Shown: positions 20,886 through 24,696 of the stretch, piece after piece
Layout of the letters: each line of letters begins with the position of its first letter
Numbering within the stretch: position 1 is the first letter of the stretch
Assembly: GCA_030427805.1 (NCBI GenBank)
Contig: JAUICP010000005.1
Span: forward strand, 186,001 to 250,000
DNA: 64,000 nucleotides
Reading direction: 5' to 3'
Origin: Bdellovibrionia bacterium
Lineage (GTDB): Bacteria > Bdellovibrionota > Bdellovibrionia > Bdellovibrionales > JAGQZY01
Notes under the pieces: model-generated
Told to the model about the DNA's origin: nothing
The model's input: the letters and a program-made list of their open reading frames with translations, nothing else
The model's database searches: none
Program-made: the position numbers and the translations under genes

Positions 20886-20985
20886 AGAATGTTTGCTCAA
20901 TTTCTAGTATAGAAGCCAAAGTATGGTAACCGAATGACTCGTGTACTTCCCTTGATTATTTACAGACTTCGTATGAGCATTGGCT

Positions 20986-21675
20986 ATGGTCCGAAGTGTT
21001 CTTATCGTCGAAGATGAACCCAGTATTGCCGACACATTAATATTTGCCCTCGAAAAGGAGAGCTTTTCTCCGACTCGTGTGGCGACACTCTCTGAGGCAA
21101 GAAGTGCCATTGCCGCCAGTGAATTCTCGGCGATCATTCTCGACGTAGGATTACCCGATGGTAATGGTTTTGACTTCTGTAAAGAGCTTCGAAAAGATTC
21201 GGATATTCCCGTAATTTTTCTGACAGCCAGGGGTGACGAAATCGATAAGATTGTCGGATTAGAAATCGGGGCCGATGATTATGTCACTAAGCCCTTTAGT
21301 CCCCGAGAAATCACAGCGCGCTTGCGTGCTATTTTTAGAAGACTCGATAAGTCGGGTCGTCACTCTTCTGAAGCCTCTTTTTCGAGTTTTGAAATCGATA
21401 AATGCAAAAGGCAAATCAAGTTTAAAAATCAGACCCTCGAGTTGAGTCGCTATGAGTTTGGAATTCTAGAATTGCTATTGGCCCGGCCAGGACAGGTTTT
21501 TTCAAGGCAACAGATTATGGAAAGTGTCTGGGAAGATCCGGATATGAGTCTTGAGCGAACAGTCGATACCCATGTCAAAACCTTGCGCGGGAAGTTGAGT
21601 GCGATTGAAAGCGGTGAGGAGTATTTGCTGACCCATCGAGGGGTCGGGTACTCGATTAAAGATGAAAACGACTAG
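20986..21675 (+). CDS. creB: two-component response regulator CreB
   Basis: 229 residues from ATG 20986 (an in-frame TTG at 20980 is possible; neither has a clear ribosome site). Receiver domain with the acidic pair D10/E11, phospho-acceptor Asp53 and Lys102 in T-K-P-F. A winged-helix OmpR-type output domain follows (about 130-226; E-L-S-R-Y-E-F-G-I-L-E-L-L and the R-T-V-D-T-H-V-K-T-L-R recognition region). Assigned as CreB rather than a general OmpR protein because a CreC-like kinase and CreD follow directly. Confidence 0.88.
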   Translation: MVRSVLIVEDEPSIADTLIFALEKESFSPTRVATLSEARSAIAASEFSAIILDVGLPDGNGFDFCKELRKDSDIPVIFLTARGDEIDKIVGLEIGADDYVTKPFSPREITARLRAIFRRLDKSGRHSSEASFSSFEIDKCKRQIKFKNQTLELSRYEFGILELLLARPGQVFSRQQIMESVWEDPDMSLERTVDTHVKTLRGKLSAIESGEEYLLTHRGVGYSIKDEND

Positions 21676-21713: not shown

Positions 21714-23213
21714 GTGAAATATTCCTATAAGATCTTTTTAAGTATTTTAATTATTCTCGGATTAGGTTTTTGGGGTTATGGCTACTGGTTGATGAAAGAA
21801 ATCCGTGGGCAGTACTCTGAAAGTATCGAAGAGTCTCTCGTGGACTTTTCTAATATTCTAGCAGCCTATCTCTCTGCCCAAGCTGAAGGCGGGCAAGTCA
21901 AAACCGATGACTTTAATGAAGCTTTTAAAAACTTCAAGAAAAGTAGTTTTCGAGCAAATATCCACGGTGTTATTAAAGGTGATAGTCCCATTAATGCCTA
22001 TGTCACCGACGAAAAGGGTAAAGTCCTCTTTGACTCTCGCGATCCAACAAACGTCGGTAAGGACTTTTCTCAGTGGAATGATGTTTACCTGACCCTAAAG
22101 GGTCAGTATGGTGCTCGTTCAACTCGATCCAATGACAATGATCCCTTGTCTTCTGTTTTTTATGTGGCGGCACCCATCCAGTATGAGGATCGGATTATTG
22201 GCGTTGTTTCAGTCATTAAGCCCGAAAAAAGTTTGCAGGTTTTTGTGGCCCGGGGGAGACAGAAAATTATTTTTACAACCTTTCTGATCTTAATTGGAGC
22301 CACTATCATTGCTGCCATCTTTTCTTATTGGTTAACCAGGCCGATCAATGCCCTAACTCGATACGCGCAAAAGATTTCCGAAGGGGAGTCAGCCAGACCT
22401 CCAAGGTCGACGTCTACAGAATTCAATAATCTGGCTAAAGCTTTTGATGAAATGAGAATTTCATTGGAGGGCAAGAAATCAGTCGAAAACTTTGTTCAGC
22501 ATTTAACCCATGAGTTAAAAAGTCCATTGAGCGCCATCATGGGGGCCGCAGAGCTTTTAAAAGAAGATATGCCTCCTGAAAAACGGGAAAAGTTTTTAAA
22601 CAACATCGAAATTGAGTCGACCCGAGCAAAATCACAACTTGAAGATCTTTTGACATTGGCGACTCTTGAGAGTCGGAGTGAGCTGATTCAGTTTGAAAAG
22701 TTCTCCTTGTCGGATCTCCTCGAAGAACTCAAAATGTCCTATCTTCCGCTATTAGAAAACAAGGGACTCGAGTTGAAAATTAAGGTGGTGCCCCAGGATT
22801 TATTAGCTCGAGGAGAAAGAAAACTCATCGCACAGGCCATCAGTAGCATTCTGTCCAATGCGATCGACTTTTCTCCGCAAAATGGAGTGATAGAGATAAA
22901 TGGCAGACGGGCGGATCGGAATACTTGCATAGAAATTTCAGACCAAGGACCCGGCATTCCCGAGTACGCCCAAGATAGAATTTTTGAAAAATTCTACTCT
23001 TTAGAGCGCCCCGATACCGGAAAGAAAAGCACGGGCCTCGGCCTGAGCTTTGTCAAAGAGGCGATTTCACTTCACTCGGGAGAAATAAAGATCCTGTCCA
23101 GCAATTCAAAGCAAGAAAGTTCTAATGGCTCCTCGTCAGTTGAATTCGAGTCTTCTGGGGTGTCCTCAAGCTGGGATTCTGGCGCTAAGGTACTGATAAC
23201 ACTTAAGAACTAG
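21714..23213 (+). CDS. creC: sensor histidine kinase CreC
   Basis: 499 residues from GTG 21714. TM1 at about residues 7-26, a periplasmic sensor part (V-T-D-E-K-G-K-V-L-F-D-S-R is a Cache-like strand) and TM2 at about 182-204 lead into a HAMP linker. The phospho-acceptor histidine is His266 in T-H-E-L-K-S-P-L. The ATPase domain has N (S-N-A-I-D), G1 (D-Q-G-P-G-I), F (F-E-K-F-Y) and G2 (G-L-G-L-S-F) boxes. The order and the match of the sensor region fit CreC. A Ser-rich insert near residues 465-490 is unusual. It follows creB by 38 bases. Confidence 0.88.
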   Translation: MKYSYKIFLSILIILGLGFWGYGYWLMKEIRGQYSESIEESLVDFSNILAAYLSAQAEGGQVKTDDFNEAFKNFKKSSFRANIHGVIKGDSPINAYVTDEKGKVLFDSRDPTNVGKDFSQWNDVYLTLKGQYGARSTRSNDNDPLSSVFYVAAPIQYEDRIIGVVSVIKPEKSLQVFVARGRQKIIFTTFLILIGATIIAAIFSYWLTRPINALTRYAQKISEGESARPPRSTSTEFNNLAKAFDEMRISLEGKKSVENFVQHLTHELKSPLSAIMGAAELLKEDMPPEKREKFLNNIEIESTRAKSQLEDLLTLATLESRSELIQFEKFSLSDLLEELKMSYLPLLENKGLELKIKVVPQDLLARGERKLIAQAISSILSNAIDFSPQNGVIEINGRRADRNTCIEISDQGPGIPEYAQDRIFEKFYSLERPDTGKKSTGLGLSFVKEAISLHSGEIKILSSNSKQESSNGSSSVEFESSGVSSSWDSGAKVLITLKN

Positions 23214-23215
23214 AT

Positions 23216-23253
23216 TTCATAGAGAGTTCATCTAGAGTTCGCGAAGACTTCAT
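23216..23253 (+). promoter_or_regulatory. putative CreB-binding site array (cre tags)
   Basis: Four boxes TTCAT, TTCAT, TTCGC and TTCAT start at 23216, 23227, 23238 and 23249, each exactly 11 bases apart. The E. coli cre tag is TTCACnnnnnnTTCAC, with the same 11-base period. The array starts 2 bases after the creC stop and lies 82 bases before the creD ATG, as expected for CreB activation of creD. Confidence 0.75.
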
Positions 23254-23334
23254 ATTCGTTCTCCAAAATGTAAGGACCAAGGGGTTTAGGTTTAAATCCC
23301 CATTTAAAAGGTCAGTACAAAGGAGAAACTTGAA

Positions 23335-24696
23335 ATGAGCGAAGCCATCAAAGTTAAATTAAAGAGAAATATTTGGGTCAAAGTTCTACTTTCGATATTA
23401 ATCAGTCTTCTGCTAATGATTCCAGCCTGTCAGATACAGTTTTTAATAGATGAGAGAGCTCTGTATGAACAAAATGTAAAAAGAGAGGTCGCCGAAAAAT
23501 GGGCGCAACGACAAATCACCGGTGCTTTGGTTCTTTCCGTTCCAATTCTACAAAAAATAAAAACTAAAAATGATAAAGGGGAAGTAACGATCAGTGATTA
23601 CCATTCTAAAATTCATTTTCTCCCCGAAGAACTCAATATCGTTGCCGATGCAAAGACGACAGTGCGCTATCGTGGAATCTACAAAGTTCCTCTTTACGAG
23701 ACGAACCTAGTGATCTCTGGTGACTTTAATGGTGTGGACCCTAAAAAGCTGGATCTCGGTGATGCAAAAATATTTTGGCATAAAGCCATTCTCAGTCTCG
23801 GAGTGCAGGACGTACGAGGCCTAAAGAGCGTTGATATGCGTTTTAACGAGCGAAAGCTTGCCGTTGACGTGGGAGCAATGCCTGCAGGAATTTTTAATAG
23901 TGCGATTAATGGCGAAGTACTGCAAGACAATGCACTGATCGAGAAAGGTCAGGGCCAGTTCTTTATTGAGATTCAAATGCGCGGAAGTGAAGCTCTTGAA
24001 TTTTATCCTTTCGGGCAAACAACCAATGTGAAGATGACCTCCGATTGGGGCTCTCCTAGCTTTAACGGTTCCTATTTGCCAGAAAACCACGAGATCACAG
24101 AAAAGAGGTTCAGCGCCGATTGGAAGATTCTCGGGCTCACTCGAAACCTTCCAAAGTTTTGGGCGGGCACTCAAGATATTACTTCTAATCTGTACAGCAG
24201 TCGGTTTGGAGTCCACTTGCTCATTCCCTTAAAAAACTATCAACTCAACACCAGGTCCGTTAAATACTCGATCCTTTTTATACTTCTTACTTTTGTGACG
24301 ATGTTCTTTGTTGAAATTCTCTACGGTATTCGCTTTCACCCTATGCACTACGGAATGATTGGCGGAAGCTTAGTCCTCTTTTACCTGCTGTTGCTTTCTT
24401 TTTCGGAGCATCTAGGATTTAGTGCGGCTTATGCCATGGCTTCACTCACAACGGTGGCAACGATCTTTGCCTATATTTACGGAGTTACTAGAATAATCAA
24501 GAGTGCGAGTATTGTTTTAGGGCAGCTCTCGCTTCTTTATGGTTTTCTCTTTATATTGCTCAAGCAAGAAAGCTACACTCTGATTTTTGGCTCTATGGGG
24601 CTATGGGTGATTCTCGTCATACTTATGTACACCACTCGCAAAATTGATTGGTATAATTTGTCCGGAAAAGAGCCCAAGGAAGCCCTCAAGGCTTGA
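23335..24696 (+). CDS. creD: inner membrane protein CreD
   Basis: 453 residues. AAAGGAGAAACTTGAA precedes the ATG. CreD is the classic CreB-regulated target, linked to envelope integrity, beta-lactam response and colicin tolerance in other bacteria. The N-terminus has one membrane segment (about 13-32) followed by D-E-R-x2-Y-E-Q-N-V-K-R-E-V-A-E-K-W, the family start. A large periplasmic part runs to about residue 300. Six or so C-terminal membrane helices start in S-I-L-F-I-L-L-T-F-V-T-M-F-F-V-E, containing the conserved H-P-M-H-Y motif. Full length. Confidence 0.93.
   Translation: MSEAIKVKLKRNIWVKVLLSILISLLLMIPACQIQFLIDERALYEQNVKREVAEKWAQRQITGALVLSVPILQKIKTKNDKGEVTISDYHSKIHFLPEELNIVADAKTTVRYRGIYKVPLYETNLVISGDFNGVDPKKLDLGDAKIFWHKAILSLGVQDVRGLKSVDMRFNERKLAVDVGAMPAGIFNSAINGEVLQDNALIEKGQGQFFIEIQMRGSEALEFYPFGQTTNVKMTSDWGSPSFNGSYLPENHEITEKRFSADWKILGLTRNLPKFWAGTQDITSNLYSSRFGVHLLIPLKNYQLNTRSVKYSILFILLTFVTMFFVEILYGIRFHPMHYGMIGGSLVLFYLLLLSFSEHLGFSAAYAMASLTTVATIFAYIYGVTRIIKSASIVLGQLSLLYGFLFILLKQESYTLIFGSMGLWVILVILMYTTRKIDWYNLSGKEPKEALKA

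Follow-up and report, generated by a model that had tools for sequence, protein, structure and literature searches.

A predicted four-box CreB operator upstream of creD in a Bdellovibrio-like bacterium, with counterparts in Desulfobacteria

The CreBC two-component system has been described in Escherichia coli, Aeromonas, Pseudomonas and Stenotrophomonas. It does not respond to the same signals in these bacteria, and little is understood of what CreD does. A short sequence of two boxes, the cre/blr tag TTCACN6TTCAC, is found upstream of creD and of Aeromonas beta-lactamase genes and is read by CreB/BlrA (PMC4689548, PMC3660660). In Stenotrophomonas maltophilia, the tag TTCACACTCGCTTCAA is located in the creC-creD intergenic region (PMC4689548). 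Activation of CreBC was described elsewhere upon loss of PBP4 or in response to metabolic signals (PMC4689548, PMC2654508). In a neighboring case, the pho boxes of PhoB are direct repeats for which a strict spacing between the box and the core promoter elements has been reported (PMC10294691). We analysed a window of 64,000 nucleotides from a Bdellovibrionia bacterium, in which the initial annotation had described an array of CreB-like boxes with an exact 11-base period directly upstream of creD. The features of this locus are given below, with the box letters of a genome of the same genus (G001) and of a genome from another family (G047).

20986..21675, forward strand: creB, response regulator (NCBIfam NF008296 CreB, 306 bits, cut-off 273)
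21714..23213, forward strand: creC, sensor histidine kinase (NCBIfam NF008312 CreC, 538 bits, cut-off 356)
23216..23220, forward strand: box 1, TTCAT, from the sequence; conserved in G001 and G047
23227..23231, forward strand: box 2, TTCAT, from the sequence; TTCAC in G047
23238..23242, forward strand: box 3, TTCGC, from the sequence; TTCGC in G047 too
23249..23253, forward strand: box 4, TTCAT, from the sequence; TTCAA in G047
23264..23269, forward strand: putative -10-like hexamer CAAAAT, deduced from the spacing rule described below; 10 nt after box 4
23320..23325, forward strand: AAGGAG, likely creD ribosome binding site, read from the sequence
23335..24696, forward strand: creD, inner membrane protein (Pfam PF06123, E 1e-131; NCBIfam NF008712, 428 bits, cut-off 275)

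The gene names creB, creC and creD were confirmed, all three being above the curated NCBIfam equivalog cut-offs; the ATG of creB is at 20986, while the listed open reading frame begins at a TTG at 20980. The recognition-helix segment of CreB, RTVDTHVKTLRGKL, compared with RTVDTHIKTLRAKL in E. coli CreB, corresponds to nearly the same DNA-reading helix. As this helix is conserved across the wider PhoB family, the similarity alone is no proof of CreB specificity. The announced period is borne out by the coordinates: positions 23214-23269 read AT TTCAT AGAGAG TTCAT CTAGAG TTCGC GAAGAC TTCAT ATTCGTTCTC CAAAAT, the four boxes starting at 23216, 23227, 23238 and 23249, i.e., exactly every 11 bp. The array lies within the 121-bp gap between the creC stop codon (23211-23213) and the creD ATG (23335), its first box 2 bp past the stop codon and its last box ending 81 bp before the ATG, and creD is likely the gene that it regulates. 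No fifth in-register box was found on either side of the array.

Compared with the cre/blr tag, the locus presents the same TTCA-pyrimidine boxes, the same 11-bp period, an orthologous regulator and the same place directly upstream of creD beside creBC, in the order creB-creC-array-creD. The resemblance to the enterobacterial geometry TTCAC-N6-TTCAC, proposed from the start, is thereby supported (PMC3660660, PMC4689548), and this geometry is encountered four times in register, with T or G variants. The differences are the number of boxes, four instead of exactly two, the C or T at position 5, the fixed distance of 10 nt to a -10-like hexamer and, in Desulfobacteria, the target, which is an exosortase K operon. 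Having two boxes is how gammaproteobacterial promoters have been described and not a functional requirement, and the array was therefore counted as a variant of the tag. As judged by sequence comparison, it is a real, conserved multi-box variant, of which an earlier report with more than two boxes may exist in the tag literature. In S. maltophilia, the tag occupies the same place in a short creC-creD gap (81 bp vs. 121 bp here), but it consists of two boxes and the regulation is more complex, creD rising on creBC inactivation (PMC4689548). In E. coli, creD is preceded by TTCACCGTCACTTCAC and then by a TTCAA one base out of register (L175:3100-3150); with CATAGT following 10 nt further on, this TTCAA recalls the spacing rule of the longer arrays. 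The pho boxes are also direct repeats bound by an OmpR/PhoB-family regulator, with a strict box-promoter spacing on the PhoB side, but their core sequence and their regulator differ: the regulator adjacent to the array is CreB (306 bits), which scores 197 bits against TIGR02154 PhoB, below the cut-off of 296.

The probability of a fortuitous array was evaluated with a first-order model derived from the window, an array being defined as at least 19 of 20 TTCAY letters at period 11. Such an array has a chance of 2.2e-9 per position, i.e., 2e-7 in the gap, 0.0003 in the window and 0.02 in the 4.5-Mb genome. For periods 8 to 15 other than 11, nothing above 17/20 was found in the window. When the whole genome was searched for four TTCRY boxes separated by N6, the sole match with zero mismatch was the window array, the runners-up having two mismatches. 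Three near-arrays of the same genome were rejected as chance occurrences: C8:288586 and C6:725924 because they are inside open reading frames, and C3:220300 because it runs over the beginning of a frame on the opposite strand and faces a second frame on that strand. By contrast with the four-box array, a two-box pair alone is not informative, as illustrated by one pair observed in the window vs. 0.95 expected. The genome scan for box pairs proposed earlier would be swamped by chance matches (78 pairs in the genome vs. 41 for a reversed control). Besides, no array that could account for autoregulation was found upstream of creB in the window, and an exact four-box scan of viral contigs gave only scattered, uninformative hits among the matches listed.

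Conservation upstream of creD in related genomes, on which the initial annotation had staked its proposal, was observed in G001, in G047 and in loci of two further Bdellovibrionota families (f8 and f10). The array is kept in G001; the congeneric locus L008 stands at 98% for CreD. In G047, whose CreD and CreB are 56 and 70% identical to those of the window, it reads TTCAT/TTCAC/TTCGC/TTCAA at the same place after creC, odd third box included. According to a manual count on the alignment, 18/20 box letters are identical between the window and G047, compared with about 7/18 spacer letters. In families f8 and f10, creD is upstream of creBC and the array, mostly of TTCAC boxes, precedes creD, the majority of loci having three to four boxes. 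Two creBC-linked loci of the phylum depart from this pattern, one without array (G348, L116), in which creD and creBC are divergent, and one with a partial array only (G030, L112). The window, G001 and G047 share the order creB-creC-creD, whereas other Bdellovibrionota families (L114, L115, L117, L118, L173) have creD-creB-creC. creD is also rare in the phylum (11/369 genomes searched), and its patchy distribution suggests repeated loss or transfer.

Then, creD upstream regions were sorted according to the presence of adjacent creBC, an array being scored at 17/20 or more over four boxes. As expected for a tag conserved in relatives keeping creBC, 15 of the 17 creBC-linked creD genes outside gammaproteobacteria carried the four-box array, vs. 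none of the 27 without creBC nearby (Fisher p 6e-10, with loci that are not fully independent, the window and G001 belonging to one genus). None of the 13 creBC-linked gammaproteobacterial creD genes had it, at most two good boxes being present in these promoters. Among 25 loci of the Desulfobacteria class chosen by CreB similarity alone, an array of at least 18/20 was present in 21, and three of the four misses were loci cut by contig ends. As the array accompanies both creBC-linked creD and a Desulfobacteria operon other than creD, it follows CreB and is, from this comparison, a predicted property of the promoters that CreB controls and not of creD. Its distribution covers Bdellovibrionota, Desulfobacteria and one unclassified MAG (L009). 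The emphasis initially put on four boxes rather than two was justified, since four are what the loci sampled outside gammaproteobacteria usually have; the two-box version of E. coli and its kin is, in this sample of sequences, not the general form. When a CreB tree was rooted with paralogues, the loci carrying an array formed one clade with moderate support (SH-aLRT 91, not starred), gammaproteobacterial CreBs formed a grade near the root, and the array trait needed three changes; an ancestral four-box form is not supported by this topology. The Bacteroidota creD genes (L018, L020-L023) have neither creBC nor array, and the frame just upstream of them resembles a small winged-helix regulator, so that in these bacteria the control of creD may be of a different type.

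The arrays of creBC loci obey a strict grammar. At period 11, 34 arrays of at least 18/20 were found in 28 of 39 creBC loci (402 kb), vs. 0-1 for each of the other periods from 6 to 20. A hexamer with at least four of six letters of TATAAT is located 10 nt after the last box (N10) in 20/28 arrays, any other offset accounting for at most 6/28. In the window, CAAAAT is only a 4/6 match to TATAAT; if it is the -10 element, transcription would start near 23276. No sigma-70-type hexamer pair was found at the creD promoter site, the -35 element being absent, and because box 4 ends 10 nt before CAAAAT, the position expected for such an element has boxes 3 and 4 on either side. The predicted layout is that of an activator-dependent promoter. 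Regarding the letters themselves, T makes up 58% and C 35% of position 5 in a set of 110 boxes taken from Bdellovibrionota and Desulfobacteria. In the creD leader, TTCTCC (23259-23264) could pair with GGAGAA (23322-23327) of the creD ribosome binding site in creBC read-through transcripts. TTCTCC would be absent from a transcript started near 23276, and the pairing, kept in G001 and not evident in G047, could silence read-through translation. In L008, the part of the creD leader that separates the array from the ribosome binding site contains, at about 2320-2380, a 30-bp insertion of AAAGGCCAG-like repeats.

In most Desulfobacteria loci, the array stands about 3 kb ahead of creB and is followed by genes for a VIT/VWA protein and exosortase K. 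The order in L158 (2863-7978) is four-box array, VIT/VWA protein, exosortase K, creB, creC, with equivalent stretches in L151-L156, L159-L162, L164, L165 and L168-L170. The second gene was above the TIGR04287 cut-off for exosortase K in 11/11 cases tested, L158 among them, and the VIT/VWA protein is related to the marine sortase target TIGR03788 with a score below cut-off. In this class, creBC is the predicted two-component system of the exosortase K operon, which resembles dedicated sortase systems, but with CreBC. A search for exosortase K in the genome of the window organism gave zero matches, but so did the control genomes, and this result does not establish its absence.

From these comparisons, we consider the four boxes as the operator of a creD promoter activated by CreB and a multi-box variant of the cre/blr tag, with a probability of about 0.88. 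This function is deduced from strong comparative evidence. It is improbable that the array is instead read mainly by another regulator of the OmpR/PhoB family recognizing 11-bp direct repeats: this family commonly binds such repeats (PhoB: PMC10294691) and creBC genomes encode many CreB paralogues, but in several groups and before different target genes the array goes along with creBC, the CreB/BlrA tag as published consists of the same core, TTCAY-N6-TTCAY (PMC3660660), and the array is absent from the 27 creBC-less creD promoters while OmpR-family paralogues are present in the genomes tested. Slightly less probable still is a plain two-box tag in which two adjacent boxes matter (e.g., 3 and 4 at the promoter), the others being relics or weak auxiliary sites. 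The limit of two good boxes in gammaproteobacteria and the departure of box 3 (TTCGC) from TTCAY would fit such a tag, but all four positions are kept in G047, TTCGC included, and four near-perfect boxes occur in 21/25 Desulfobacteria loci, whereas relics would lose register. Finally, a chance repeat or a structured RNA leader of creD that does not involve CreB can practically be dismissed: the creC-creD gap does fold better than its shuffles (z -2.7), but the genome scan, the period test, the chance model and the creBC linkage exclude chance, the predicted pairing is mostly downstream of the array in sequence not common to G047, no Rfam family matches the gap, and arrays with a constant spacing to a -10-like hexamer are encountered in more than one phylum.

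In the operator model favored here, CreC would sense a stress signal and CreB would be phosphorylated as a result, by analogy with known CreBC systems. Phosphorylated CreB would then occupy the 11-bp direct repeats in a head-to-tail arrangement, each TTCAY box receiving one winged helix and the four boxes probably two dimers side by side, and would recruit RNA polymerase to creD much as PhoB does. The interpretation initially given to these boxes stands for the CreB/CreC/CreD orthologues, the tag geometry, the conservation and the number of boxes; the T at position 5 as a lineage-specific form does not, given the 35% of C and the mostly TTCAC boxes of f8 and f10.

On balance, we lean toward a broader view, in which the standard operator of a whole clade of CreB proteins (Bdellovibrionota, Desulfobacteria and others) would be an in-register series of about four boxes at a constant 10 nt from the -10 element and would differ from the two-box tag of gammaproteobacteria, the same module steering CreBC to different envelope targets, i.e., creD here and the exosortase K/VIT-VWA surface-protein operon in Desulfobacteria. 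If so, four bound CreB subunits would provide a steeper switch than the two-box form, and the natural series of two, three, four and five boxes would be suitable for testing box number against switch behavior. The strict four-box, N10 grammar across phyla would make direct CreB targets readable from sequence alone; it singles out creD as the one clear target in the genome of the window organism and, in Desulfobacteria, indicates exosortase K. The extension of the known Cre logic to a Bdellovibrio-like organism thus appears to hold in its main idea by comparative evidence, and CreBC would be tied to envelope biogenesis beyond the beta-lactam response.
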